From Steromphala cineraria (Eukaryota; Mollusca; Gastropoda; Trochida; Trochidae), in contig OU744725.1 of assembly GCA_916613615.1 (NCBI GenBank), positions 67,278,575-67,342,574 on the forward strand: DNA of 64,000 bases, read 5' to 3'. Both the position numbers and the translations under genes were made by a program. The notes beneath the pieces were generated by a model. It saw only the letters and a program-made list of their open reading frames with translations, had not been told where the DNA came from and ran no database searches. Below are positions 42,826-64,000 of the stretch, in pieces; within the stretch, counting starts at the first letter, position 1, and each line of letters begins with the position of its first letter.

Positions 42826-42881
42826 CTGCAAAAAATATAAGATTTCTACGGAAGCATCCTAGTGCCACAGTGAGAATTTTT

Positions 42882-43035
42882 TTTATCTCCTAATTAGGAG
42901 ATACTATCACCTAATTAGGAGATACTATCTCCTAATTACGAGATACTAACTCCTAATTAGGACTTAGTTATCACCTAATTAGGACTTAGTTATCACCTAA
43001 TTAGGAGATACTAACTCCTAATTAGGAGATACTAC
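42882..43035. repeat. TAATTA palindrome array 1
   Basis: About seven copies of a roughly 20-base unit built on the palindrome CTAATTAG, for example TCCTAATTAGGAGATACT and ACCTAATTAGGACTTAGT. Confidence 0.85.
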
Positions 43036-43100
43036 CTCCTAACATTGCATAATTGCTTTATTATTCAGAGATACAAAAACGAAAAGACAACAAAAACTAC

Positions 43101-43636
43101 AACTTCTTTGAGTGGCATTTAGAAGTTGGAAGTCAAATAAGGACGAATATTTTATGGATAACAACTTCTTTATTCTGAGTACACAATAAAGACGTTTCGA
43201 TACAGCTTCTTGTATCGTTTTCAAGCATAATGACATGGACAGAGAGTGGGATATATATAGGTGAACTAATTAATCAACAAAATAAACAACAACATAATTG
43301 AGATAATAGTAACAATAAGATGATAGGGATTACAGTGGAAGCCAGTAGAAGTAGTACAGAGGATGGACACAATAGGAGTATATACAAGACAATTGGGTAG
43401 ATAGCAAGGGATAATTAACATTGATTGATCAGTTCATCATAGGCACTGGGGATAGGATACCCTTGATCCCTGTTAATCAGAGGTCGGAATCTTTTGATGT
43501 TAATTCCTTCAGTTATTTTTCGTTTCGTCCAGTCTGATTGGTTGGTGGCAAGTATCTTAACGTTGGTCCAGTTGACTTGATGGTTAGTGTACTCAGAATA
43601 AAGAAGTTGTTATCCATAAAATATTCGTCCTTATTT
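43101..43636 (-). mobile_element. Penelope-like retroelement, 3' fragment
   Basis: A 536-bp insert is flanked by the 12-base duplication AACAAAAACTAC (43089-43100 and 43637-43648). The sister copy at 44662-44673 has this 12-mer once and no insert. On the minus strand, from about 43606 to 43426, a frame codes NHQVNWTNVKILA, QSDWTKRKITEGINIKRF, RPLINRDQGYPIP and a C-terminal INQC. This matches the end of the GIY-YIG endonuclease region of Penelope-like elements, including the conserved LNRD-like motif. A 50-base inverted repeat beginning AAATAAGGACGAATATTTTA lies at 43136-43185 and 43587-43636, as seen in many such elements. The catalytic part is missing. Confidence 0.78.
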
Positions 43637-44053
43637 AACAAAAACTACGGCTAACTACGGGAATTTGGTTCGATTCTGATCATGACGTCATTGTCCACTT
43701 GTCCCAAAGCAATTGAACCTTATTGCTGTAGATCACGTAGTCTTTTTCGTATTTTCCTTTTTGTATCGAAGCGTAATAAAATAACTGTGAAATGGTGAAT
43801 TCGGTCCAGCCCTCTTTCTATGAACCCGAGGAAAACAATATTGACCTCTGACTTCGTCCTTGGTCAATATTGTTTCCTCAAATCCATTAACTTTGTCCTC
43901 GGTCAATACTGTTTTCCTAGGGTCCATAAAACAGGTATAGACCTCATCACCAGTCAATATTTATAATGTCATTTATTTCATTCAACTTATCAAACTACAT
44001 TGTAAATATTTGTAAAAGGATAAAAATATATAGGTCTGCAGGTGGGCGTGTAT

Positions 44054-44400
44054 TACGGAAGCATCCTAGTGCCACAGTGAGATTTTTTTTTATCTCCTAA
44101 TTAGGAGATACTATCTCCTAATTAGGAGATACTTACTCCTAATTAGGACTTAGTTATCACCTAATTAGGACTTAGTTATCACCTAATTAGGACTTAGTTA
44201 TCACCTAATTAGGACTTAGATATCACCTAATTAGGACTTAGTTATCACCTAATTAGGAGATACTTACTCCTAATTACGAGAAACTTAGTCCTAATTACGA
44301 GATACTAAGTCCTAATTAGAACTTAACTATCACCTAATTAGTACTTAGCTTTCACCTAATTAGGACTTATTATCTACCTATTAGGTGATTGCTAGGTCTA
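44054..44400. repeat. Second left end and TAATTA palindrome array 2
   Basis: TACGGAAGCATCCTAGTGCC occurs again at 44054, followed by about thirteen copies of the CTAATTAG-centred unit, mostly ACCTAATTAGGACTTAGTT. Confidence 0.85.
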
Positions 44401-45139
44401 ACTTCTAATGACCGATAACGCCAATACTTTAAAAGTATATTATACATGATCTATGCTATAAAAGACTCACAAAAGCACTAAAGATCAAAATATATTTTGT
44501 CTTTCATATAATAATAAAAGTTTAGGAGAAAGTTTATAGACTCGTGGAAAACATTATTGACCGAGGACGAAGTCCGAGGTCAATATTGTTTTCCTCAGAT
44601 CAATAAAACATTCACCATTGCATAATTGTTTTATTATTCAGAGATACAAAAACGAAAAGACAACAAAAACTACGGCTAACTACGGGAATTTGGTTCGATT
44701 CTGATCATGACGTCATTGTCCACTTGTCCCAAAGCAATTGAACCTTATTGCTGTAGATCACGTAGTCTTTTTCGTATTTTCCTTTTTGTATCAAAGCGTA
44801 ATAAAATAACTGTGAACTGGTGAATTCGGTCCAGCCCTCTTTCTATGAACCCGAGGAAAACAATATTGACCTCTGACTTCGTCCTTGGTCAATATTGTTT
44901 CCTCAAATCCATTAACTTTGTCCTCGATCAATATTGTTTTCCTAGGGTCCATAAAACAGGTATAGACCTCATCACCAGTCAATATTTATAATGTCATTTA
45001 TTTCATTCAACTTATCAAACTACATTGTAAATATTTGTAAAAGGATAAAAATATATAGGTCTGCAGGTGGGCGTGTAAATAAGTAAAAAAGGTTAACTTT
45101 TGAATGACCTCCATGCTGAATAAAGTTTTGATTGATTGA

Positions 45140-45440
45140 AGTCCTAATAAGGAGATACTTATGTCCTAATTAGGAGGTAGTATCTCCTAATTAGGAGTTA
45201 GTATCTCCTTATTAGGTGATAACTAAGTCCTAATTACGTAATAGATAAGTCCTAATTAGGAGTTACTTATGTCCTAATTAGGAGGTAGTATCTCCTAATT
45301 AGGAGTTAGTATCTCCTAATTAGGTGATAACTAAGTCCTAATTAGGTGATAACTAAGTCCTAATTAGGAGTTAGTATCTCGTAATTAGGAGATAGTATCT
45401 CCTAATTAGGTGATAGTATCTCCTAATTAGGAGATAAAAA
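45140..45440. repeat. TAATTA palindrome array 3
   Basis: About twelve copies of the same unit lie just inside the right end, mostly in the inverted phase relative to array 1 (GGAGATAGTATCTCCTAATT). Confidence 0.85.
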
Positions 45441-45479
45441 AAATTCTCACTTTGGCACTAGGATGCTTCCGTAGATTTC

Positions 45480-47430: not shown

Positions 47431-47610
47431 CTGTCAACAGTCATTAATTAACATATGGTGTGAGCTAGGCTCAAGCAGTAAATTGTTATAAAAACAAATC
47501 TTTAACCAGTGTGGGGTATTACAATTCATATATTGGTGAATCAACACTTGATTTAAGTATAGTTACATACTTTGATCAAGTTGTTTTGCTGGATAATTAC
47601 AATTGACACT

Positions 47611-48223
47611 TGAATCTATACTCTGCTGCAAATGAAATCAACTCATATGCTCGAAGAAGTATAATAGCTGTTTTAAAGGATAGAATATGCACAAATGAGG
47701 AAATGGAGCCATTAGGAGCTGATATTGAAAGTGCAATACTGAATGGACTAAAACAATTACAGAAGGACGAACTGAGACAGAACCAAAGAGATGTTATTCA
47801 ATACTATTTGAATGGAGAGGATGTTCTGTTTTGTTCTCCGACAGGGAGTGGAAAGTCCTTGACTTTTGAAATCGCACCACTTCTTTTCCAAGAATTACAA
47901 AAAACTAAGAAAGCGTTGGTGATAGTCGTGTCACCTTTGATTGCCCTCATGAAAAATCAGCATGACCGAGCACAGAAACTTGGACTCAAATCTGTTTATC
48001 TAAATGATATCAAGGAAGATCTCGATGCTTCATGTAATGAGGATGATTTGATATCCACTGTTGAAAATTTGAGTATTCAGGATATTAAAGCTGGAGAAGC
48101 TGATATTTTGTTTACAAGTCCAGAATCAATTCTTGGAAAATACAGAGATGTGGTAATCGAGTTGGACAGATTGAAGTATCTGAAGGCCATTTTCATCGAT
48201 GAGGCGCATTGCATAACAAAGTT
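47611..48223 (+). CDS. RecQ-like helicase, exon 1 (motifs 0 to II)
   Basis: This exon codes the first RecA-like half of a superfamily 2 DNA helicase. The Q-like motif LRQNQRDVIQYYLNGEDVLF lies near residue 55, the Walker A box SPTGSGKS near 76-83, motif Ia (VSPLIALMKNQ) near 109, the TSPES motif near 170, and the DEAH box (IDEAHCITK) near 196-204, just before the donor GTGAGT at 48224. The spacing fits RecQ. The frame starts without a methionine; the first in-frame Met is about residue 32, so an upstream exon is missing or the 5' end is lost. With exon 2 it makes AAG TT/T GGA, keeping phase. The family unwinds 3'-to-5' DNA using ATP. Confidence 0.85.
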
Positions 48224-48601
48224 GTGAGTATAACAAAACATTTGAAAACTGTAATAAAACTTTTATCCATAAATATATCATTCATCTCTGCAGGTATATT
48301 GATATGAACTTATGTACATGTGTTTAGTTATACTAGGAGTAAGATACTGATGGAAACAGTTAGGGTGCAATGCCTTTTTGATTTATACATATATATTGTA
48401 TCAACCGTAGAAAAATAAATCTTAAGAAAATGTCAAGGTCACGAAATATGGTAGGATTGTAGGAATTTTTTCATTTTATGAGGACTGTTAAGAAGGCATT
48501 ACCATCAGTTCCGAGGCAACTCTGCGTTTGCGATCCCGCATACGCTCATCTAGGATAACCAGTATTTATGTAAAGGGTGCATATGATTTAAGCTTCTTCA
48601 T

Positions 48602-48826
48602 ATACTGAGAGAAATGAATAAAGGAACAGGTTCATTTTAGAGAAATCTTTTAGTTTCATAAAAACAAAATTTCAATCTATGACATTGGACGTTATTGTCC
48701 AGATACACTGAACTCTTTATGAAGCAAAATATTTTGTCAAAAGCGTTTTATTATGATTTACTATTTGAATTGTCTTCTGAGGGAAACTATTTCAGGTGTT
48801 CCCTTGTTTGTTTCTCTCAGTGTATT
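48602..48826. mobile_element. MITE in helicase intron, about 225 bp
   Basis: TACTGAGAGAAATGAATAAA at the left and the imperfect reverse complement TTGTTTGTTTCTCTCAGTGTA at the right form inverted repeats of about 30 bases. TA at both sides suggests a TA target duplication, but the ends are blurred. Confidence 0.6.
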
Positions 48827-49121
48827 CAGCTGTTTTCCATGCAGTTGGCTTTTATGTATGTATGCACATATTAAATATATATATTATGCATGACGTTTTC
48901 AAATCTTATTAGCAAATATGGTATTTAGGTGTACATGTTTATCAAAGCCAAACGTAATGTCATGAATATAGCTTGTCACCCACATACCTTTTTGTCAAAT
49001 ATTATTCATAAAGTAAAACAAAACACACACTCATTTGTTAACTGTTATTTATTGATGCCAAATACATGTTTTTATCTTTTTGATATGCATTGGCCATTAG
49101 CTTTTATTGAAGATTACATGT

Positions 49122-49657
49122 GGTGAATTTGTACCCAAAACAATCTGATTTTGGCAAACTGTTTGAAACTTGAGTGGTCAACTCGTACCAACTTTTGTAT
49201 TCTTCAATATAGATACCTAAATATTGTAATAATGTATTTTTTCATAATAAATTGTGGATGATATTAATAACATATTGATTTGAATCTTAAGATACCTTCA
49301 GATTAAATCTTGCGTCATTTTAAAGTAGTATATATTCAGTAATAAATTCCTGCCATTAATTGAAAAATATCTATATTGTTGAATGTATGTTAAAATTAAT
49401 CATTACATATGACAATATTTTAGGATAAAATGCATTTCGTTACTATCTTTTTTGCCCATGTATTTACATAAGACTGTCTTCTTTATCTGGGATGGTGTAG
49501 ACTTTCTCACCTTGGATTCCTGTTGACCATCTGTTATTATTAGCTTGTCTAAGTTAAGGGTTAATTGTTACTAACACCTGATACAGTACTCTAAATGTTA
49601 CAATAAAATAGTATATGAAATGTGGGTTTACCATTCTGTTTTGGGTACTAATTCACC
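49122..49657. mobile_element. MITE in helicase intron, about 536 bp
   Basis: GGTGAATTTGTACCCAAAAC at the left matches the reverse complement of the right end (TTTTGGGTACTAATTCACC) with one mismatch in about 21 bases. The target duplication is not clear. The interior is AT-rich and non-coding. Confidence 0.72.
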
Positions 49658-50083
49658 TACAGTCAAGTACTATAAAATTTTGATCACAAGTACGTCACTG
49701 ATATGAATAGAGACATCTTTAGAGTTATAAAAAGGTCAGATATAATTGAAATATTTAACAAACATCAGAAAAACATAACTGTACTGTTATAAGAGGTGTT
49801 TTGAATATTCCTAAATAACTCAGTAGGTTTTACTGTACACTTGCATTTCATCTTTAATGTAATTCAGTTCTTTTACCATGGCTACAAACATATCTAAAAC
49901 TAATTCTACAATGAAGAGGGAATTACTTATGAATATGAACATGTAGGTTTCTCTTAAAAGGGATGTAGGGAATTTGGAGAGTATTTTTAAGAGATGAATA
50001 CTAATCTTACAAACAATATATATCTCAGAACAATGTGAAATATCATAGCAAATCATTATCACAACATCTTTTCTACTATACTG

Positions 50084-50372
50084 ATGTGCAAAAGAAACGC
50101 CCACTCATTTTAAAATTAAAACATATATACTGTTGACGGTAAAAGTGAATTATGAATCTCATTGATTGGCACAAGTCTTATAGACAAGTAATCACATTTC
50201 ATACATCAGAGTATAATATTTCAAGACGTTTTGGTCAGAATATTTGTCGTAAAATGTTCAACTATAGTAAAGTTAGCCGTTGAAGATATTTGTAACTCAT
50301 TCTAAACTTATTCATTACCAGTGGATTGAAACCTCCTGTTTTTTTTAAAAAGGAACGTTTCTATTGCAAATG
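50084..50372. mobile_element. MITE in helicase intron, about 290 bp
   Basis: The left end TGTGCAAAAGAAACGCCC and the right end GGAACGTTTCTATTGCAAAT are imperfect inverted repeats of about 17 bases. No coding capacity is visible. Confidence 0.55.
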
Positions 50373-50741
50373 AGTTTATTTAATATTTAAAAAAATTTGA
50401 ATTAAAATATAAATAGGAAGGTAAAAATTTTGCTTGCAGAAATAATTATAAAAATAAAACCATTCTTCTGGGAAATTACACATACTGCAGTAGTTAACAA
50501 AGGAGAAACAAATAAACTTCCGAAAATGATTATTTAAAAAGGTAAATTGAATTATTTCTTAAAATATGAATATACATCTTAGTGGACAAAATTTGAAAGT
50601 TACTATTCCTGTTTCTTCCGCCCTACACATCAAGCAAATATTCAATCAGCAAACATCTTAACCTAATTTATATAGCAGAACATAGGATAGATTACTGCAA
50701 ATCTAAATACACCAAATCAAGAGTGACTATTTTATTCACAG

Positions 50742-51750
50742 TGGATCTGCTGCGGATGGGAAAGATGCTTTTCGACCCTCCTATGGACAACTTGGAGAAC
50801 TACGATCATTGTCAAGGGTTCCCATGATTGCTATGACAGCAACTGCAAGTCAGGCAACACAAAATCAAATCATTAAAAGTCTCTGCATTACTAAGTGCAA
50901 AAAGGTACTTGTCAGTCCAAACAAGGAAAACATTAAATACTGGCTATGCGAAACATCAGGCAAGGTTGTAAGAGATTTCTCCTGGCTCTGTGATAGTCTC
51001 CGGGAGAAAGGAAGACATATGCCAAGAATGATCATTTTCTTCAGGCAAACATCACAGATCAGTAGACTCTATTCGCATCTGGCTTACTAACTGAAAGATA
51101 AGGCCTATGCAGACAGTGATTCTGATGGACAAATTGATGACACTAAAAGACTATTCGACATGTTCCACAAGTCTACAGATGAAAGTGTTAAAAAGAGCAT
51201 TCGCGCTGCATACATGGACCCAAAGAACGTCAAACGAGTCCTCCTGGCTTCAACATCATTTAGTATGGGTCTTGATGTCCAAGGCGTAGATCACATCATT
51301 CATTATGGACCAGCAAATGATGTAGAAGACTACATGCAAGAGACTGGCCGAGCTGGTCGCAATAATGAACAGTCACATGCTATCCTGAAGAAGTTCAAAC
51401 GTTGTCTGTCGGGCAGAAGAGGAATAGACCCTTGCATGAAAAACTATTGCAAACAGAGAGAGTGTAGAAGAAAAAAGCTACTTAAGCACTCTGTGGCCTC
51501 GCCAACTTCACTGTTGCCTGCTCATTCGTGTTGTGACATGTGTGCGAAGACATGCAAATGTCTTTGTCAGTGTGAAAGTTCACATCACTGTGATTGTGAA
51601 AATCTCTGTCCGGGAAATATGTCATTGGTATATGACTGGATCACTGCCACTGAAGACTCATCTGCAAGCACAACGACATCTGACAGTGACATTGATGAGT
51701 TCACACAGCGTACACCTATAGTCCTTCGATACAGTTCTGAGAGTGACTAG
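50742..51750 (+). pseudogene. RecQ-like helicase, exon 2 (motifs III to VI and zinc region), one in-frame stop
   Basis: After TTTTATTCACAG the frame continues the helicase: FGSAADGKDAFRPSYGQLGE (the RecQ aromatic-loop region, with an insertion), motif III AMTATAS, IIFFRQTSQ (motif IV), ASTSFSMGLDVQGVDHIIHY (motif V) and QETGRAGR (motif VI). A Cys-rich tail follows (NYCKQRECRRKKLL then HSCCDMCAKTCKC), like the RecQ zinc-binding region. It ends with a Ser/Asp-rich stretch. A TAA at 51088-51090 cuts the frame between motifs IV and V; the same frame resumes immediately, so this is a single nonsense change. The TAG stop at 51748-51750 overlaps the stop of the facing DUF6589 gene. It probably belongs to a transposon rather than being a host RECQ gene. 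Confidence 0.82.
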
Positions 51751-52624
51751 ATTGTGTAAAATGAATGGCTAGCGAATGTTCCCAAGCTTTCTGAAATCCA
51801 TTCTCTAATCTTTGGCATGTCTAAACTCCTTAGAGGTTCCTTCAGGGAGGTGAACTGTTCATGTTCTTTTTCAGGATCATTGACAAACACATCACCTTCC
51901 AAGTGAAATTGCATCGGCAATCTGATGATGTCCTGAGATGAATCCATTGTAGTGTGTTTTCCACTGCTTTGTCTGACTGCTCCTTCCTTGTCATACTGTT
52001 TGCATATGACCTCCGTGGTTTGAGTGCTTCTACTCACTCGCAGTATTGTTCTTTCTGAGTAATTCCCTCTGTATGTATGAACCTCATCTTTGAAAACACG
52101 GTTGCAATGTTCCAAATCCAAGTCATTCGGGTGATTACTTCTCTGTTTTCCAAAGTGATTCACAGTTCTATTCCACTTCAGTCTTTCAGATTGCCGCTCT
52201 GTCAAAACACACGTTCAGCTGAGCCTGTGTTTCCAAAAGGGCAAAGGCATATTTGGGACAGTTACAGGCTTTGTAGTACAGCATGAACAGTTTTCATAAG
52301 CGAGCTAACCGGTCACCATCACCCAAATGAATGGCATCATTATGGTTGAGTCTTAGGAGACCAAGGGCCAAACATTGTCGTGTATAGTCATACACTGAAG
52401 ACTTTGCCTTTGCTGAGGGTGGATCCATGTGAGGTCCAGGATTATAACATGGATCAGGATGATCATGTTTCGAAGATTCATGTTTACGAAGAGGTTTTGG
52501 TCGTTGGTACTCTTTGTTGCAATATCTGCATTTGAGTTGTTGCGACGACGGCCCATAGGCTGGAAAGCTTGGCATCTCGGGGAAACAATGCTCCTTCACA
52601 AATGCAATAGCATGATCCATGATG
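51747..52624 (-). pseudogene. C2H2 zinc-finger / DUF6589 protein, C-terminal part
   Basis: On the minus strand, 52620-52294 codes a classic C2H2 finger (CRYCNKEYQRPKPLRKHESS then KH), followed by LNHNDAIHLGDGDRLARL, which fits the conserved NDA..GDGDR core of DUF6589. After a frameshift near 52297 the frame 52295-52200 reads KLFMLYYKACNCPKYAFALL. After a second frameshift near 52205 comes SERLKWNRTVNHFGKQ and DLDLEHCNRVFKDEVHTYRG, also typical of DUF6589. It stops at 51747-51749, overlapping the helicase stop tail to tail. DUF6589 is widespread in cnidarian, mollusc and fungal repeats; its function is not known to me. The upstream part lies at 63746-64000, beyond an 11-kb insertion. Confidence 0.75.
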
Positions 52625-52626
52625 TA
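52625..52626. repeat. TA target duplication, left
   Basis: TA stands immediately left of CAGTAGTGTGAA and again immediately right of the other end at 63744-63745. Confidence 0.8.
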
Positions 52627-52649
52627 CAGTAGTGTGAATAAGTAACTAT

Positions 52650-52770
52650 ATCATGAACGAGTGTGCCATGCGTTGCCCACCAGTGACCCACCGGTGGGCA
52701 ACGGGTGAGCCACGGGCGACCACTCGTTGCTCACTGGTGAGCAACCAGTGACCAACGGGTGTGTCACTGG
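52650..52770. repeat. GC-rich subterminal motifs, left end
   Basis: Many short motifs such as CACCGGTGGGCAACGGGTGA and CACTGGTGAGCAACCAGTGA are packed in both orientations in a GC-rich island within an otherwise AT-rich region. Similar motifs fill 63590-63720 at the other end. Subterminal motif clusters bind the transposase in CACTA and some other superfamilies. Confidence 0.8.
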
Positions 52771-52879
52771 TGTGCCGTCTGGCTGGATAATTGAGGGTGC
52801 GCCACGGACTTGTCAAAGTGAAGAAAACATACATAAAATCGCTTGGCAATGAGTATAGTGTTATAAGGATTACGTTAAG

Positions 52880-54600
52880 AAGTACGACTTCTTATGAAAT
52901 ATTGAATATCTTGAATTGTGCTCTGTTGACTTGAAAGATCTTTGTACAATTTGATAAGTGTTCACGTTAAAAGATATGTTGAACTTGTTGATTATATTGA
53001 TTTTGAACTTTCAAATTATCTTGACTTTGTAAAAAACTGATTTTGACGACATTAAGATTTTGTAAAATGTAGACTATAAACAAACTTTGTGAAATATTCA
53101 GATAGAAAGATTTTTGATTATAAGAAATATTGACTTTGAAAAAGTATTTTTATATAATTTGAAAAGTATTTTGATTTTGTGAAATATTGACTTTGAAAGA
53201 TTTCATGATTTTAAAAGATACTGAGTTAAAAAGACCTTTCCTTCTTTAGAAATATTGACTTTGAATATTTATTTTACTTTGTGCAAATTTGACTTTGAAA
53301 GACATTTTATTCTATTAAATATTTACTTTGAAGTGAACATTGGAATTTTGTGATTTGGTGGAATTTATACTTTAAAGTACGTTTTGATTAAGTGATATAT
53401 TGACTTTGCCATATACTTGGATTGGATTGGATTGGATTTTATGAATTATTTACTTTGAAAGATATTTCCATTTTTGGGAATTATTTTGTTGGATAGATGT
53501 TTCGATATTTTGTTAAAACTTTTGATTGTATAAAATATCGACTTTGAAAAATATTTATGGTTTTCTTTAAAACATTGACTTTGAACAATCTGTAAAAAAG
53601 GAAATATACTGTGAAAGACATTTTGACTTTGTGGAGTAATGTCTTTAAAAGATTTTATGATTTCATGGGATACTGAGTCAAAAGTCATTTCGATATTCAG
53701 AAATGTTTACTTTGAAAGTGATATTGTCATTGACTGACATTTTTATTTTGTGGAATATTGATTTTAAAGGACATTTTGACTTTGAGACATATTTTGATTT
53801 TGTGAAATATTGACTTTGAATGATGTATTTATTTTCTCAATTATTTTCATTTTAAAGGTATTTTGAATTTGTTAAATATTAACTTTGAAATGTGTTTTTG
53901 GAAATATAGACTTTGAAACATATGTTAATTTTATGAAAATTGACTTTGAAGAAAGGTTAACTTTTGTTAGATACACTTTAATAAAATTCAGCTGTGTTTG
54001 CATGTGAACTTTAAAATAAATTTTGTTTTGTTGGGATGTTTACTTTGAAAGATTTGGGTATAAACATATTCTTATTCCAAGAGAAGTCTTGTTTGCAAAC
54101 AAGCAAACTCTACTCCTATTCAGAACTAAACAGAACAAATGAAGATCTAAGACCTATTCATATATCAGCCAATCTACATGAGTCTTTTTAGACATATTCC
54201 TAGGCAGTTTCATTCACTTTTGATTAAATTATCAACGCGTTAAAAGATTGTTTCTACAAGTGTAAAAAAGTTCACTTCAATCAGGTGAAATGTTGACTTC
54301 AAGCAAAATAGAACTTTATTCAAAAACACGTTGACTTTGATAAATTGATGACTATGAAATATCGGAAATTGGTTAAATTTAAGCTTTTAAAAATATTTTC
54401 ACACAAATCTTGACTTTTAAAAGAAATTGTTAAAAATATATTTTCTGACAAAAAAAGTTATGACTTAATATTCAAATTACTGTTTGTGTGCAATTATGGA
54501 TCCATTTTTACTTTCTTGAGATATGATATTGACTTTGTATACATTGACTCTTGTGAAATTTTGACTTATTAAAAGAGAAGAATGTTGAATTAAATTTAAT
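52880..54600 (+). repeat. Left long array, GACTTTGAAAGA type
   Basis: An imperfect satellite-like array runs for about 1.7 kb, built from pieces like ATTTTGTGAAATATTGACTT and TTGACTTTGAAAGATATTTT with an irregular period of about 25-60 bases. The plus strand is very poor in C. A pure GGATT run (about 53419-53437) lies inside. Its reverse complement fills the right end. Confidence 0.82.
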
Positions 54601-55685
54601 ACGGTATTTTAAAATAAGTTTTCTCTTTATAAAATGAGGACACCTGGTCAATCAAATTTGGTTGTGTACTAGTATATCATGATATCGGACTCCGTGACTG
54701 GCGTGAGTAGAACACATAGTTAGTCTAGGGATTTCTCTGACGAGGTATGAAAGTGCTACATGTAATTAAGAGGTCGTTTGATCAGAGCGACTCGTGGTTG
54801 TGTAATATTAGGTCACGCCACCAAGGTACAAAGACAAGTGGTGCAGTGTATTCAGCTTATGACAGGATATCCGCCTATTCCAAATTAAATCCTAAATTGA
54901 TTAATGTAACCACAAATGACCCTTCACTAAGTGATAGGTCGTAGTAGTTTACTGCTATTGATAGATATCCAGCTAAGTCGGACAGTAACAGAGCTCAAAG
55001 ACTCATTCAAAGATAGAATTATATCTCTCTAACTTTTTTCTGCCCTAGTTACTTCATATTGATAATTAATAATTATTTTAATAGACTTGTTTTTTGATCA
55101 TATTAAGAATCCATTCTTGAAACCAAACGGATTGGAAAATAAATCAAGCCATCACATTGCTGTATAAATTCATCCATTTGTCAAATATAGCATGTTGTTT
55201 TGTTATCCAACCTTCTTTATAATTATTGCCAATGTCTTTTTACTCATTATACTTCATGCAACGTTTTGTTCTTTCATTATAATTACACCTAAGATAATGT
55301 AAATATATGATCTCGTGAAAACCCTTTTAGAGTAATATTATGCCATATGCGTTTAGAAAACAATCTCGTTTTAGATATACATAACATTGAAAACGCAGCA
55401 CATAAACCTATACATACAACTAAACTAAGGCAAAATACAAGGCACAAAACAGTGTTTCCGTCATTCATTTCTCTGAATTAAATGTGTTTTTTGTGTTTTA
55501 AAGATATATTTGATCATTAAAAGTTTTGTCTTTTTGTAGAAAAAAGTAAACAACTGAATTATTCTTTTGTTAATTTTCGATTTATATCCAATTTCGACAA
55601 CTTAAACCACAACTGTGACCGATCTCAAGAGTCAAACATACGTTTACTATTACTTAGATTGAGACTTATTACAGAGTGAAGAGAA
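54601..55685. other. Interior spacer of the 11-kb element
   Basis: No recognisable gene. The 65-codon frame at 54747-54944 has no motif I know. Confidence 0.45.
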
Positions 55686-55689
55686 ACTA

Positions 55690-56240
55690 GCAGACAGACA
55701 GGCAGATTATTAATTAAAGTCTCACTTAATGTTTTACATAAATTACATACGAGTTTAAGGTACAATATACAAGTGTAACAAGTGAGCCACCCAAAAAAGG
55801 GTTATGAGAGACTAAAAAACGTAAATACATCAATAATAAAATAGCACATTATTTCTTAAAAAGTCAACAAGTTCTTTTCTGTAAAATGAGCTTGCATCAA
55901 CAGTACTGAGATACCGCGAGTCCAAAAGGAAACTCGGAATACTTTCATTACCGAGGGTCAATCCAAAAGTCTTTGATTTAAATATTCTAGTTAAGAGTTT
56001 TTCAGATCACCTAATAAGAATTGTCCGACGATAATTCCCTGGAATATTGCTATCTCCTTCCTTGAATACTGGAATAATAACAGCAGATGGTCAACTTTGT
56101 CGAGAAAACACCTGTTGATTAAATACAGTTCAAATTCCATGTAAAATAGGCGTAACATATTTATCAAATTCAATTAAACATTCATCTATTGTACAATCGG
56201 AGTGATTCATCACGCTTTTAACGACTAACATCCTGCTTAT
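55690..56240 (-). mobile_element. LINE remnant, internally deleted
   Basis: CAGACAGACAGGCAG at about 55691 marks a 3' end like that of the LINE at 9477. On the minus strand near 56100-55960 the sequence SAVIIPVFKEGDSNIPGNYR, then SEKLLTRIF, is the first conserved block of a non-LTR reverse transcriptase, with stops. The rest of the reverse transcriptase is deleted. Confidence 0.65.
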
Positions 56241-58455
56241 CTCAGCTGTCCTAATGTTTCATAATCTGTCTACCTTTCTAAGGCCATAAACATGCCAACG
56301 CACGGTCACCTGTCTGCCTGTTGATTGCTAATTAAGTGGCTGATGATCACAAGTGTGATTGATCTGGTTATGGCCTAATCCGTCGAAATATACAAATCTT
56401 CACGCTATGCATCAACAGTGGGGTTGGTGGTTAAGGGAGGGGAGAGGGAGGGCGTGGGAGTGGGAGTATCAATGATTGTAATGTTTGTAATGGATTGAAC
56501 GGAATGTTCTTCTAGGACGAATTTTGATTAAAGTGCAAAGATGATTCCACCCCCCCCCCCCTCCCCCCAATCGAAAATAAACAGATGAAGTTTGCCCTTT
56601 GTCGTGGCGCTATCAACTGAACAAGTGAAATAGGTCTTGTAAAAAGAATAATCTAGGACGAAACTATTCTTAATATTTACAAGTAGTTCATAAAGTAGAA
56701 ACATTCAACCTCAAACAGCCGCTTCTTAAATTACTCTGTTTACACTGACAATTACTGACTTTACATTCAGGTTTCAACCTCTTACTTATAGTATAGTTTT
56801 TAACACATAACGTAAAATACATGGAGACAATGGCAATAATGTTTAGGTATTTCGTAAAAATGTTTCATTTCCATATTGCAATATCATTACGTTTAAAATG
56901 AAATAACTCCTTCAAAAATTAAATTAAAAATGAATAAGAATCCATCAACGGATATCTTATTTTTGGTAACTTTTTATGTTATGTAAGTCAATTATGTTTC
57001 AAGACCACAATATCAATCAGTCGAATTCTTTTTCCTTGATAAAAAAGAGTTTATATTGCTTGATAATTTTATCAGACTACATTTCACTTGTATTTTTGAT
57101 TTTTCTTACTGAAGAACTATCAAAATGTGTACTGCATAGTCCTACCAATCCTACTGTATAAATATGAGACAGTAGGGTTTTCAAATATTTTAATATTTTA
57201 GAAAACATTTGAAATTATTCCCGCATGAATAATTGACACTGATTTACTTCTGCAGATTTTTGCCTTGTCTGATAGATTTATACAAACGTCGATCTGACAA
57301 ATCCAAAACAAGGATAATTGTAAAATCTGTCAAACCTTTTTGGGAAGAAATTCATATTAATTCCCCATACAAACTATTAGCGATGCATATTTTCTACCCA
57401 TTGAGTTTGGTCTATAGGTCAGATAATGTATACAATTACACCCTTTAAGCATATCTTTAGACGTAGTTTGATATCCGTGTTGTTTTATGCTGTGTTGTTC
57501 ACATATGTATACCTTAAAGCAAATATTTTTGTATTTTACATTATGGTATCTCTTTTGAATTACATATTGCACCGTGCATCGTAATTGGTTTTAACATGTA
57601 CATAGTATCTATATTCACATTTTGAGTATTATTGTGTGATTAACTGTAAGAGCGAGACTTGGACAGTTTTGTGTGTATACTTGTTTTACTTGTATCATTA
57701 TTTCGGTATAATTTTGCCAGTCATTAGAAAACATGGGATTTACACAGCAATAAAATCAGTGACCATGACCATTGTCTGATGCTGTTAGGCGCTGAATTGA
57801 TCAAAGGCGCCGCCCCTTGTCAAGCTGCCCCTTTGCATTAGAGGTGTCACTTTTGGTAAACGCTCATACCGAGATGTAGTAGTGTGTAGTACTCATGTGT
57901 GTCCGTAACATATAAGCAATAAGGTACTTTACAGTATATACATGTATATTGTTATTTCTATGAAGTGATGTAATTATCACATAACCGTCAAATGAATTCA
58001 ATCTCCTTTGAGAGATCCTCTTGCAAATAAACATTCAGTAAGATTCAGTGAGATCAAATAGTATATAATTTGTCCTTAAAATAACACCTTTCACATGATT
58101 CAAATGTACATGGTCTACCAATTGAAGCGTATCAATTGTGGAACAAGCATTTGCAAATGATTTCATTAGACAATATGCTTTAGCGACGCCATGTTCGGTA
58201 GTGTATGGGTATTTCCGACATTCACGTTCCATGTCTGTGTTTACAACCAATAATCGCACTTTTTGAACAATACCCTCTTTATACAAGTTCTTCTAGTCAT
58301 GTGAATTTTAAATGCTTTTTGATATCAAGTTTAATCTCATTCAAAGTAAATGGAAAAGTATCATTATTTTATGTTGAAGTCGTGTATGTTAAATGATACA
58401 CTCTAGTTTGTTCGATCTAAAAACAATTAATATTCAATGTATGGTTTTGTTTACT
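56241..58455. other. Interior spacer of the 11-kb element
   Basis: No supported gene. It contains a poly-C run (about 56550-56570) and several AT-rich frames under 75 codons that look random. Confidence 0.4.
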
Positions 58456-58459
58456 TTAA

Positions 58460-58814
58460 AGGGGCAGTAGCACGTTTTTTTATAAGTTTATATTTCAAAA
58501 TGTTCACTGATAATTGTAAGTTAATGCTAAACGTATTATTTTGACAGTGTCAACAATCTCATTACACAAGCCAATCATCCATAGTCAGAGAACAAATTAT
58601 GAAGATTCACATTAAATCCATTTGCGGCCATTTTGTGTGAACACCTTTAATTCATTTTGTGTAAGAAACAGAAATTGCATGGCTAAACTTTACGTCATAT
58701 ATTTGAATTATTACTGCTCCATTTAGTTTAAATACATTGCCTTTCAATTGACCAATTAATTTTTATTTTCCTGACATCACCTTATATTCCCCCTAAGAAC
58801 GTGCTACTGCCCCT
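58460..58814. mobile_element. MITE with TTAA duplication, 355 bp
   Basis: The ends AGGGGCAGTAGCACGTT and AACGTGCTACTGCCCCT are perfect inverted repeats, flanked by TTAA at 58456-58459 and 58815-58818. A diverged relative lies at 21271-21621. TTAA duplication points to a piggyBac or Kolobok type helper. Confidence 0.85.
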
Positions 58815-59609
58815 TTAATGGACATCGTATGGCATTTGATAGTATGATTACATATAGACATATTTATATCATATCCGGAACTGATACAGGATGAAGTCAT
58901 TACATCGATTGAACTTCAAAAATTCAATCTTCTTGGCAGGAAGTGACGGAACTTGCTCACCAGAAAAGGAGATCACGCTCATCACATATCACTTTTCCGT
59001 CACAGAATTCTGATTAAAACGTTTCCATTGAAGTATCAAAGCAAGAAATAATACATTGCGCTAGGTAAATTTGAAGCACACAATTGGTAACTGCCATCTG
59101 ATGTATGAAGAAATGCAAATTCATGTATGTCAAATTATAATTGAAGATGTCATGCAATTTGTTGGTGTTGTTATATATCTTTCAAAGAGGTGAAACTATT
59201 CTACAATTAGCAACCCTTTAGTGGTTCATCCAAAAAAATTAGTACGATACTCTATATTGAATGTAAGATTAAAACACAAACAGGATTTAAGATATTTTTT
59301 ACTTATTGGTGTATATGCATATAAACTATATGTTGACAACTCAATTAATGCATCTGTCAATTAATCGTCTTTGACAGGAAAATAAATACTGCCAATTATT
59401 ACCAGAAGGGGCAGATAACATCTATCTTGTACATTATCAATATTTACACTGATTGATTGATCTCGATAAAACAGTAACACATACAGAACTTGATTGTTCT
59501 TTACAAGACTATAAAATTTGCGTCAATCCCGTCTAGGGAGATGAGCATTGTTCAGCGCTAAATAGTGTCGCCTGACCGGGCGCTTAGATAGGGTCCTGGT
59601 GTTGGGCCG

Positions 59610-60500
59610 TGAATCAGACAGACAGATTGTTTATTTAAGTCTCATAAAAAGCATGTCGACGGATTAAGAAGTAAATATGCATTTACCAGCAGGAAGAAAG
59701 AAGAAGAAGAAGAAGAAGAAGAAGAAGAAGAAGAAGAAGAAGAAGAAAAATAATGTATTTAAGTGTCAAGCGATACAGTTGTAAAAGACAGTAAAACACA
59801 TAACTTAAAACATTGCCCGGCCAACTTGGGCCTATTTGACACTTAGTTACTAAAATGTATACAAGTAAAAGCCCTATGGTGCTAAAATATTATTGCATAT
59901 ATACATAGGTGTGTTACATAGGTGTAGAATACATATTTATGAGGTATTTTGTGAGAGTCTAAATCTAAACATTTTTTTTATTAATGCGGCAACTGAGTAA
60001 TTTAGTTTATGATGATTCATTAGAAATACGAGTTGATCGTTCGCCGAAAAATTGGGAAAATTTTGATCTATAGACGAGGAGTAATTCCAGAGAGGAGTTC
60101 GTATATCTGAATATAAAATGCAAGTAGTTAGAAAATGAACCTCGTCTTTACATAGAAGTTTTACAAGTGGAGTTTTAGGTTTTGTAAAACGACCAATCTC
60201 GATCTCTAAAGAGAGGGTGCCGCTTCTAAATTTAGCTAAATAGCCACGGATACACTATCATTAACAAATTCAACATAATCAGAGGTACAAATATCACTCT
60301 TAAAACTACGATATGTCCTTAATTTATTTCCATTGACATGCCCTCTATCATTCCATAATTGTGAACACCAACTGTTAATATCTATTTCTAAAAGTTTATA
60401 TTTTAAAACCATGAAATCTGCACACAAAGGTAGATTAAGACTTTCAAATAACTTAACTACTGTACAATCCCAGGATTTAGGCCCGTGACACAATTCCCTG
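59610..60500 (-). mobile_element. LINE 3' fragment with C-terminal coding remnant
   Basis: A GACAGACAGA-type 3' end lies at about 59612. On the minus strand 60493-60236 gives NKLRTYRSFKSDICTSDYVE and, after a frame break near 60237, LAKFRSGTLSLEIEIGRFTK and DEVHFLTTC. This is the characteristic tail of many non-LTR ORF2 proteins (KLRTY..K, AKFRCG..LEIE.GR, DE.HFL..C). The reverse transcriptase itself is absent. A GAA/AAG microsatellite at about 59697-59748 lies in its 3' region. Confidence 0.78.
59697..59748. repeat. AAG trinucleotide microsatellite
   Basis: About sixteen tandem AAG/GAA triplets run from GAAAGAAGAAGAAG to AAGAAGAAAAAT. Confidence 0.95.
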
Positions 60501-62260
60501 CCTGTTCTTCAAACATCAATAAACTGGGCTTATCAGACTATGGAGCGCAAACGTATCTAACACTACATTATCGTGAACATACAACAATTTTTTTAATTCT
60601 TACATTAGGCATGGCTTCTCAAAGTTAGAATTTCATAAAACATATATTATCTTCCGAAGGTAATATTCCACTAAAAAATCATGTATTCAAAGTGATTTTT
60701 TTGCTGAAGTCTATTGAATTTAGCATTTCAATAATTATAATTTCTTAAAACTAAACTTTCAACAATAAAGAAAATGATCTTTTTCAAACTTAACATTTCA
60801 TAAGTCCTGTTTCGTCAAAGATGATATTTCACCAAAATCTATTTCTTTCACAGACACGATATCATGCTTGAGTTGAAGTTATATCTTCCAAAATTGACCT
60901 TTTCCAGAAAGTTGAATTCAGTCAGCCCTGGATATGCTTCACGGCTCAACGCCTAGGCCCCTTGTCGGCGTAACAGTCCACTCTAACGACAATAATTAGC
61001 TCACAGTACTCTCATACCCGGACGGGGATGAAAGGATTAAGCTGTCTAGTCTACCGTAAAGTTCAGATTGTTTTATTGTTTCATTGTGTTCAGTCGGGTG
61101 TGAACAGGTGTGAATAAGGATATTAAACAGAGAACACAGAGACGTTATTTGGTAAATTACACCATTGATGTTGTTAATTCCTGGGGTCTTATCTATAGTA
61201 TATTGATGTATGAATACACATTCACTAATAACATGTATCTTGATTTGTTCACACGTGATGGGCGTGGTCTACTTTTCTGTTGAGCAAGTCCTGTCACTTC
61301 ACAACTTAGTCAGATTGATTTATTGTAGTCAAATCGATATAATTTTGGGCCTTTTAAATTTTGAATATGATGTAAAATATTTATTTTTTGTTTCCATACG
61401 ATGTGAGACAAAAAGTAAAAAGAAATAGAAATCTCTTTGACCAGTTGATATATGATAACGGTTTGAACAAACAAACATATGTAGCAAGAAAATAAACCAT
61501 ATTTGTAAACAAAACAGAATATGTCATATGTACATGTAAAATGTTACAATAAACATACGGAAGTTAAAAATAACCATCATGATGACTTGTTCAACATACT
61601 GAAATATATTTTGAATAATATTTTTAGATTGCAGTGTAAATAATAATAATAAACGCAAACGAGAAGCATGGAAATCAGTAATAAACAAGGGCGTGGCTAC
61701 ATGAAGAATATTGGCCAATGGAAGCATTTACACATGTTTGGTCTCATTGCTATGCTTCAGTCGGTAGCGTATGTATATGTGAATCATTAGATAGTTTTAT
61801 TTCAAGGTCAATCTATTTGATAATGATTACAGTTCTAGGATCTGATTACTTGTTTATTTGCGTGAGGATCAAATCAGTAGGTAATTCTAGATTCTGCTTT
61901 TATAGACGATGGATCAAGAGAGACTGAATTCATTTGATGACGATGTGATTATTACATCAAACTACATCACTGAATCGAATAAACAGGATATTACTGTTAA
62001 AGGGACATGAATACCGTGTTGCTTAAATGAACGATGGGTATGTTATGACATAAAACTGTGTAAACTTCAAACAACCCGTTATCTTAAAGATTTCTTTATT
62101 TTCCAAACCTTGTATCAGCCATTTCAACGGACCATTCATTCCTATCAAAGCCCATCGATTACTGCCTGTTATGAACACCACATACGTGCGACTCTCGTCG
62201 GTATTTAGTTAAATATATCTTTCAATGTCAACAATTTAAACATCGAAAGATTGAATAAGT
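60501..62260. other. Interior spacer of the 11-kb element
   Basis: No supported gene or RNA. The open frames are short and unrecognised. Confidence 0.4.
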
Positions 62261-62269
62261 CGAAGACTA

Positions 62270-63490
62270 TTATTCACCATGTACACAAATCACAATTTCC
62301 CAAATTCAACAAACCACAACAACACATGTTCAAAGTTCACAAAAGCAAAATATTACAAAAGTAATCATAACAGCATAACGAAATTATTTCTATAGATATT
62401 CTTAACTCAATATTTCACCAAATCAACATTTCACCAAAGTCAACATAAGTTACGTTTTACTAAAGTCTAAAGATCTTCCTAAGTCAACATTTCAACAAAA
62501 AAATATTTCACCAAAGTCGACATGATTAACATATCACTAAAGTCAATAGATTTTTATTCAAACATTCACCAAATCATTATTTCATCAAAATCATTATATC
62601 TTTCAACGTTAACATTTCACAAAATAAAACCTAAGCCAATATTTGTAAGATCGACATATCGCTAAAGACAATATTTCATAAAATGAACACATCACCAAAG
62701 TCAACATTTTACAAAACAAAACATTTCACCAAAGTCAAAATTTCACCTAAGTTGCGAATTACCAAAGTCTATGGATCTTCCTAAGTCAATATTTCACCAA
62801 AGCTGACATAATCAAAGTATCACCAAAGTCCAAAGATCTTCCTAAATCAACATTTCACAAAAACAACTTGCAATCAAATTCAATATTTCACAAAACCAAT
62901 ATCTCTAAAGTCAATATTTTACGAAACCAACTTATCACCAAAGTCAATATTTCACAAAATTAACATATCGCAAAAGACAATATTTTATTAAATGAACATA
63001 TCACCAAAGTCAACATTTCACATAATTTACTTATCATCAAAGTCAATATGTCTTCCTAAGTTAACATTTCATCAAATCAACATTTCACCAAAGTCAACAT
63101 AATCAATTAATCCCACTACTCTACAGATCTTCCTAAGTCAACATTTCACCAAAGTCTATAGATCTTCTAAGTAAACTTTTCACAAAATCAACATATCACC
63201 AAAACCAATATTTCACAAAATTACCCTCTCATCAAATTCAACATTTCACATAATCGACATGCCACCAAAATCAAAAGATCTTCTTCAGTCACCATTTCAC
63301 CAAATAATCATTTCACTAAAGTCAACATTTTTCTAAATCAACAAAATCAATATATGTGAAGTCAACATTTTCCAAAACAACATATCACCAAAGTCAATAT
63401 TTCACAAAATGAAAATCATCATTGTCACCAAAGTCAACATTTCATAAAATCGTCATACTACCCATTGCATCATTTGATGTCAACATTTCG
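62270..63490 (-). repeat. Right long array, inverted copy of the left array type
   Basis: About 1.2 kb of units such as TCACCAAAGTCAACATTTCA and CACAAAATCAACATATCACC. Read on the minus strand this is TGAAATGTTGACTTTGGTGA, the same motif as the left array. The plus strand is very poor in G, mirroring the C-poor left array. Confidence 0.82.
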
Positions 63491-63589
63491 GGAGGGAAGA
63501 TTTCCACTATATCCAACTGACTTCTAACTTCTCTTATTGAAGGGAAGTAACTCCTCACTTGGATGACCAGAGACTCGGTTATCCGTTAA

Positions 63590-63720
63590 GGTCGACCACG
63601 CGTGAGCCACTGGTGGCCAACCCGTCAGACACTGGTTGCTCACTGGTTACACACGCATCGTCTTGCATGGCCAACGCGTGAGTGACTGGTGTGACCACCC
63701 GTGTCCAACGCGTGAGGGGT
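63590..63720. repeat. GC-rich subterminal motifs, right end
   Basis: Motifs such as CACGCGTGAGCCACTGGTGG, GGTTGCTCACTGGTTAC and CCAACGCGTGAGTGACTGG are clustered just inside the right terminus, matching in kind those at 52650-52770. Confidence 0.8.
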
Positions 63721-63745
63721 ATAGGAACTATTTCACACTACTGTA

Positions 63746-64000
63746 GGTCTTCATTTTCTCGGAATCACCAATTGGACCATCATACTGAGGTGTTGAAATG
63801 GTGAAGACAGCCAGCTGTCACATATGCATAGGTCACCTTGTCTATGAAACCCCCACATGCATAGAAATCATCATGAGGATTCGACTTCACATGTCTTGCA
63901 TTTATTGTATTCCTTGCTGCATGTAGTGTTCCTACAGAATAGGCTGATGATGTGTTGTATAACTGACTCCATATAACCTTCAACAGCTCAGTCTGATTGT
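63746..64000 (-). pseudogene. DUF6589 protein, upstream part, runs off the window
   Basis: On the minus strand the frame is open from the window edge (NQTELLKVIWSQLYNTSSAY) through VGTLHAARNTINARHV and FIDKVTYAYVTAGCLHHF. This matches the upstream half of DUF6589 proteins, which have a TSSA..VGTLH..RN.IN.R core and a K..Y signature. A one-base shift near 63780 changes frame to DGPIGDSEKMKTY, which then meets the 11-kb insertion and continues at 52624. The N-terminal part lies outside the window. The gene is broken by at least three frameshifts as well as the insertion. Confidence 0.72.

Follow-up and report, generated by a model that had tools for sequence, protein, structure and literature searches.

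Tc1/mariner transposons are usually 1 to 2 kb long, and their tips commonly, if not universally, begin with CAGT. DNA transposons that carry no gene usually shrink, and miniature inverted-repeat transposable elements (MITEs) are hundreds of bases long. Foldback-like elements such as FB, Galileo, and Tetris are described as combining inverted repetitive arms, tandem units, and non-autonomous copies (PMC4079207, PMC3688188), and several transposase sites have been described in the terminal regions of Galileo (PMC3688188) and of Bari (PMC4877112). Here, we analyzed a 64-kb stretch of the Steromphala cineraria genome (G000:C6:67278575-67342574, referred to below as the window) in which an element of 11,117 bp, at positions 52627-63743, lies inside a DUF6589 coding sequence. 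The element has a foldback-like architecture with degenerate arms, is flanked by the dinucleotide TA, and is one of about a hundred dispersed copies with the same ends.

The borders of the element are exact. Its tips are CAGTA, and direct reading gave 12-bp terminal inverted repeats on the plus strand at 52627..52638 (CAGTAGTGTGAA) and on the minus strand at 63732..63743; the first 12 bases match perfectly and those further in match partly. Copies of a TA target duplication occupy 52625..52626 on the left, where TACAGTAGTGTGAA begins at 52625, and 63744..63745 on the right, where TTCACACTACTGTA ends at 63745. Deletion of the element together with one TA leaves a single open frame across the junction. 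The two DUF6589 coding pieces, downstream at 52294..52626 and upstream at 63746..63808, both on the minus strand, belong to the host and not to the element, based on paralogues together with the reading frames of the former and the junction frame of the latter.

We searched for paralogues with 131 amino acids spanning this junction, which falls at residues 21-22, and obtained 21 matches, two of them the window's own halves. Seven paralogues (C44:29.38M, C41:22.85M, C4:13.30M, C5:26.32M, C41:46.41M, C5:59.92M, and C4:4.19M) align from residue 6-8 to residue 130-131 with no stop, and three of these have frames of 846, 846, and 849 amino acids. The junction is also crossed without a stop over part of the query at C4:4.15M and C41:10.01M, and with one internal stop each at C40:19.80M and C4:7.19M. 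Because paralogues read through the junction, the insertion point lies in continuous coding sequence of the DUF6589 family. Used as a DNA query against the assembly, the joined flanks yielded only a 74% stretch and no near-identical empty site. The precise 11.1-kb insertion proposed in the initial annotation, with exact borders, inverted ends, a duplicated TA, and two DUF6589 halves that join in one frame, is confirmed; an intact homologue that does not join at this point, which that annotation had named as contrary evidence, was looked for, and the seven paralogues do join there.

The same ends recur throughout the assembly (1.27 Gb, 281 contigs), as the annotation had anticipated. The first 200 bases returned 133 candidates and the last 200 bases 154; the best 40 of each were scored, and all were 100% identical on the left and 99-100% identical on the right. 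TA precedes 39 of the best 40 left-end matches, whose search did not demand it (the exception has CA), and follows all 39 checkable flanks among the best 40 right-end matches. Exact 22-base ends with TA occur 98 times genome-wide for the left end and 105 times for the right (reversed-pattern controls, 0), and a 14-base tip occurs 266 times, versus 22 for its reversed control. Viral contigs gave 0 matches to a 24-base end pattern.

We then paired the 98 exact 22-base left ends with 100 listed of the 105 right ends at distances of up to 60 kb. A correctly oriented right end was present for 81 of the 98, using 79 distinct right ends. Lengths ranged from 7,968 to 33,913 bp (median, 11,937), so that the shortest of the 81 pairings, at 7,968 bp, is far from the short length of MITEs. 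The longest value belongs to a C39 left end whose right end also serves a duplicated left end lying closer to it; the next largest pair spans 28,034 bp. No listed partner was found for 17 of the left ends and 21 of the listed right ends. Among the listed exact ends, convergent pairs of the same type (left-left or right-right) were absent within 20 kb. Separately, G000:C1:11094212 and 11094240 mark two exact left ends that face the same way 28 bp apart; an end may have been duplicated there or have received an insertion.

For comparison of ends and interior, we took 20 plus-strand copies from the best 40 left-end matches (window apart) and read 9.9 kb from the start of each and, for four copies, the right end as well. 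The four are 10,559, 11,664, 11,759, and 11,298 bp long, with TA at the right of all four and at the left of three (CA in the fourth). Aligned to the window element, the 20 copies form collinear blocks of ∼88-99% identity broken by insertions, and the first 250 bases are 100% identical to the window in several. Bases 1-215 (52627..52841, plus strand) are invariant: 0 of 4,000 cells differ from the window in bases 1-200, the region used to choose the copies, and 0 of 300 differ in bases 201-215, which was not used for choosing. Differences amount to 3.3% for bases 216-230, 1.3-1.7% for bases 231-400, and 3-5% from there inward. Overall, copies differ by 1-5% in the interior and form subfamilies that are ∼1-3.4% apart inside and 3.3-5.3% between. 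At the right ends, which played no part in selection, 5 columns vary among the 144 covered in all five copies. Private substitution rates of 0.28-1.54% predict that ∼27 of 98 left ends would be unchanged over 200 bp; at least 39 were seen. The ends are more conserved than the interior; at the left end, the excess is of moderate size, and the choice of copies accounts for part of it. In the copy L041 (C32:36856000 region), the right tip is lost and is followed by sequence like that copy's left host flank, twice over; this is a possible scar of aborted excision or repair.

Behind the left tip are eleven degenerate 11-bp units pointing inward (52656..52775, plus strand; bases 30-149 of the element), detected by autocorrelation with z scores, against 2,000 first-order resamplings, of 6.7 at lag 11, 4.7 at lag 22, and 4.2 at lag 33. 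A right array of degenerate 11-bp units in mirror orientation occupies 63594..63714 on the minus strand (z of 2.7 at lag 11 and 2.9 at lag 34). As 11 bp is about one helical turn, the units would face one side of the DNA. Arm comparison placed an AT-rich arm of degenerate ∼16- to 35-bp units at 53158..53950 (plus strand) and a second AT-rich arm, inverted relative to it, at 62389..63343 (minus strand). Inverted shared 9-mers reach 0.105 in bases 250-1000 (mean of 50 shuffles, 0.037; maximum, 0.073) and 0.079 in bases 1000-1500 (mean, 0.022; maximum, 0.065; 50 shuffles), with no excess deeper than base 1500. The kilobase-long inverted satellite-like arrays reported in the initial annotation are thus real as inverted arms but modest, the excess being confined to bases 250-1500. 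Elsewhere in the window, 42845-45475 holds a second foldback-like structure with 198-bp arms that are 99% complementary and 21- to 22-bp units around the palindrome TCCTAATTAGGA.

The interior yielded no conserved gene. A Pfam scan of five of the seven frames of at least 80 amino acids lying wholly in the window element gave no match that reached the cut-off (best sub-threshold match, claudin-type; E = 0.022), none of 112 frames showed a third-position excess indicative of hidden exons or coding (lowest p, 0.056), and no Rfam RNA family was found at gathering thresholds. The earlier description of a non-coding element with GC-rich ends and no visible transposase is supported. The window copy lacks segments of ∼440 and ∼500 bp that 14 and 17, respectively, of the 20 copies contain, and it is therefore a derived form. 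Frames of at least 140 amino acids in the first 9.9 kb of the 20 copies resemble, by eye, nested pieces of long interspersed nuclear elements (LINEs), hAT, Tc1, and Mutator-like elements (MULEs). We considered these frames as an autonomous partner and rejected them, as the pieces lie at differing places and the two MULE-like ones each occur in one copy. Collinear alignment showed that a segment at 59693..60479 is common to L031 (in the part read), L036, and L049 only and that from 59693 it continues unbroken in all three. By eye, it looks like a LINE remnant beside a GAA run, and its unbroken presence in copies of one subfamily fits a nested passenger that moved along with the element. Also by eye, ∼360 bp at 58460-58820 are bounded by inverted AAAGGGGCAGTAGCACG-like ends and are possibly a nested short element.

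Taken together, the window element is probably a young copy of a non-autonomous, foldback-like DNA transposon moved in trans by a TA-specific transposase of Tc1/mariner type that binds the arrays. Such a DDE/D transposase, made elsewhere in the genome, would bind the phased arrays as multimers, pairing one left with one right end, and would cut at the CAGT tips and insert at TA. Intact ends would be preserved, since a copy would move on only while its ends work, and the interior would drift into subfamilies and carry passengers, e.g., nested retroelements. The size floor suggests a further requirement in cis somewhere in the interior, which is the least certain step. We offer only tentatively the stronger proposal of an obligately large TA family, moved in trans through non-interchangeable left and right arrays, in which a gene-less interior of at least ∼8 kb is needed in cis, so that copies do not decay to short forms.

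Several points weigh against movement by a Tc1/mariner-type enzyme. The assignment is suggested by the TA target and the general tip pattern of the group, phased 11-bp arrays are not known to be typical of it, its usual short derivatives are missing from the 81 pairings, and a transposase acting on these ends is putative. The right array is weaker than the left: 31 lags were tried, and lag 11 gave a z score of 2.7. The identity of the left ends is partly selection by the search, which took the 40 best-scoring matches. L007/L008 and L024/L025 are segmental duplicates that share a host flank and are not separate insertions; segmental duplication therefore adds to the copy number. It is conceivable, if doubtful, that the transposase comes from another known or undescribed superfamily and that the TA target and CAGT tips are convergent. 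The unusual arrays and the failure to find a partner favor such an origin, as does foldback-like architecture, which elsewhere is mostly linked to Mutator-type elements (PMC4079207), but the TA that flanks 39 of 40 left ends and all 39 checkable right ends is unlike the 8- to 10-bp duplications described for Tetris (PMC4079207) and the TTAA described for Kolobok (PMC9587614).

The size floor may quite possibly, if short of probably, reflect youth or sampling, short derivatives being rare or ending in variants of the exact 22-mers. The pairing used exact ends alone, which left the unpartnered ends given above and five right ends that were not listed, and different bases follow the 14-base tip at ∼41 additional places (266 minus 203 exact ends minus 22 control). 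Set against this, subfamilies have existed long enough to diverge by ∼4% and to carry kilobases of insertions, yet 0 of 81 pairings is under 7.9 kb, and the 39 convergent pairs obtained with the 14-base tip alone, from the first 100 places listed, also start at 9,270 bp. The sharp change near base 215, from 0 to several per cent difference, could be read as gene conversion between copies instead of selection for mobility. We consider this quite improbable: interior variation is mostly tree-like, with 6-14% of site pairs failing the four-gamete test and no rise with distance, and conversion confined to both tips needs a special cause.

The autonomous partner predicted in the initial annotation was not established, and the one candidate, a shortened Tc1-like gene at C42:54396779-54397561, is weak. 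This gene lies between the ends of a 28,034-bp pair (C42:54382186-54410223) and is the sixth of the best 150 DDE_3 matches, of which ∼0.12 would be expected inside paired elements by chance. It is rare (of 19 matches, a single one is at 100% and four are at 75-79%), nothing but three fragments at C3:48.796M matches the 340 bp that follow it, and its sole PDB relative is the Sleeping Beauty transposase (E = 3.5e-4). We nevertheless consider it unlikely to be the partner. Its frame of 260 amino acids is short of ∼105 N-terminal residues relative to a full-length 343-amino-acid relative on C38 (near C38:58256302), a LINE lies upstream, and relatives of the gene do not, by eye, lie between listed family ends. 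Neither stretch read in the C42 pair matches the family interior, and the two ends may therefore belong to two damaged copies. For all 3,889 DDE_3 candidates, ∼3.2 would be expected inside paired elements by chance. Another DDE_3 match, of an abundant type and inside copy L036, looks nested. Position inside paired elements was checked by script for 13 hand-picked matches. Comparison of the 421-bp stretches on the two sides of the C38 relative showed no inverted repeat of more than 9 bases, and no pogo-type gene (DDE_1) was seen by eye inside a paired element among the best 150 of 296 candidates.

The gene interrupted in the window is itself a damaged copy, with a frame of 118 amino acids ending at a stop and frame changes on either side. 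It is part of a repeated unit in which DUF6589 lies beside a RecQ-like gene (window positions 47607-52650 and 63746-64000). The location of the element inside a DUF6589 gene is exact, as the annotation had stated, but the insertion did not necessarily disrupt a functional gene, given that this copy is damaged and lies in a repeated unit. The DUF6589 matches, merged by eye, fall at 17 places including the window; 13 of these, on several chromosomes, have a RecQ-like match within ∼2 kb in convergent (tail-to-tail) orientation. Such pairs include C44:29376821/29377757, C41:22845829/22844596, C5:26324764/26323543, C41:46410161/46411091, and C37:20966892/20967680, and others. Both genes have nearly equal scores on different chromosomes at C44:29.38M and C41:22.85M and likewise at C5:26.32M and C41:46.41M. 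The best named relatives of the RecQ-like piece beside the element are from abalone (56%, Haliotis cracherodii; 63%, H. rubra). The unit that hosts the 11-kb element may itself be a mobile element. One paper describes a RecQ helicase downstream of the transposase in fungal KolobokH and reports KolobokH with RecQ from fungi only (PMC9587614); a literature search on DUF6589, alone or with transposon, found nothing. The RecQ-DUF6589 unit was also considered as the partner and rejected, as no family tip lies near the C4 units or C5:26.3M among the first 100 listed tip places, a set that does not extend to C5:59.9M.

If the proposed reading is true, ∼100 copies have been kept at 8-28 kb with constant ends, and a gene-less interior can be needed for mobility. 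The conserved ends map the working cis-sequence to about 215 bp on the left and about 165 bp on the right. The family would then represent a TA-targeting system that transports long stretches of DNA together with natural passengers, and it makes the search for the transposase a concrete one.

The initial annotation held that the element matches no superfamily, which is too strong: TA and the CAGT tips point to Tc1/mariner, and the arrays point to foldback elements. CACTA/CMC elements have CACTA-like tips and 2- to 4-bp duplications, and the CAGTA tips here do not fit them. With Tc1/mariner the family has in common the TA target duplication and CAGT tips, and it differs in its length of 8-28 kb, the absence of a transposase from the window copy, and the absence of short derivatives among the 81 pairings. 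The nearest Tc1/mariner types in end structure are Bari and Sleeping Beauty; the terminal 250 bp of Bari are described as containing several repeated units (PMC4877112), as here, but the Bari/Sleeping Beauty type has three 18-nt repeats, versus the eleven 11-bp units of the window element. Relative to foldback-like elements, the arms here are only weakly alike and degenerate and enclose a unique 8-kb center, and the TA is unlike the 8- to 10-bp duplication described for Tetris/Mutator-type foldback elements (PMC4079207). The TTAA duplication described for Kolobok (PMC9587614) is likewise absent, as the left flanks read vary before the TA. Large size is shared with the giant eukaryotic transposons treated in PMC6431247, but the kinds described there (giant long terminal repeat elements, Terminons, Helitrons, Polintons, and Teratorn) are enzyme-coding or virus-linked, whereas no gene was found here. 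In the portion of the literature on giant, foldback, and subterminal TA elements that was covered, this combination was not recognized. Each component has precedents; what is new is their combination in one family, namely, a TA target, phased 11-bp arrays, foldback-like arms, gene-less copies of 8-28 kb, strict left-right pairing, and no short forms.

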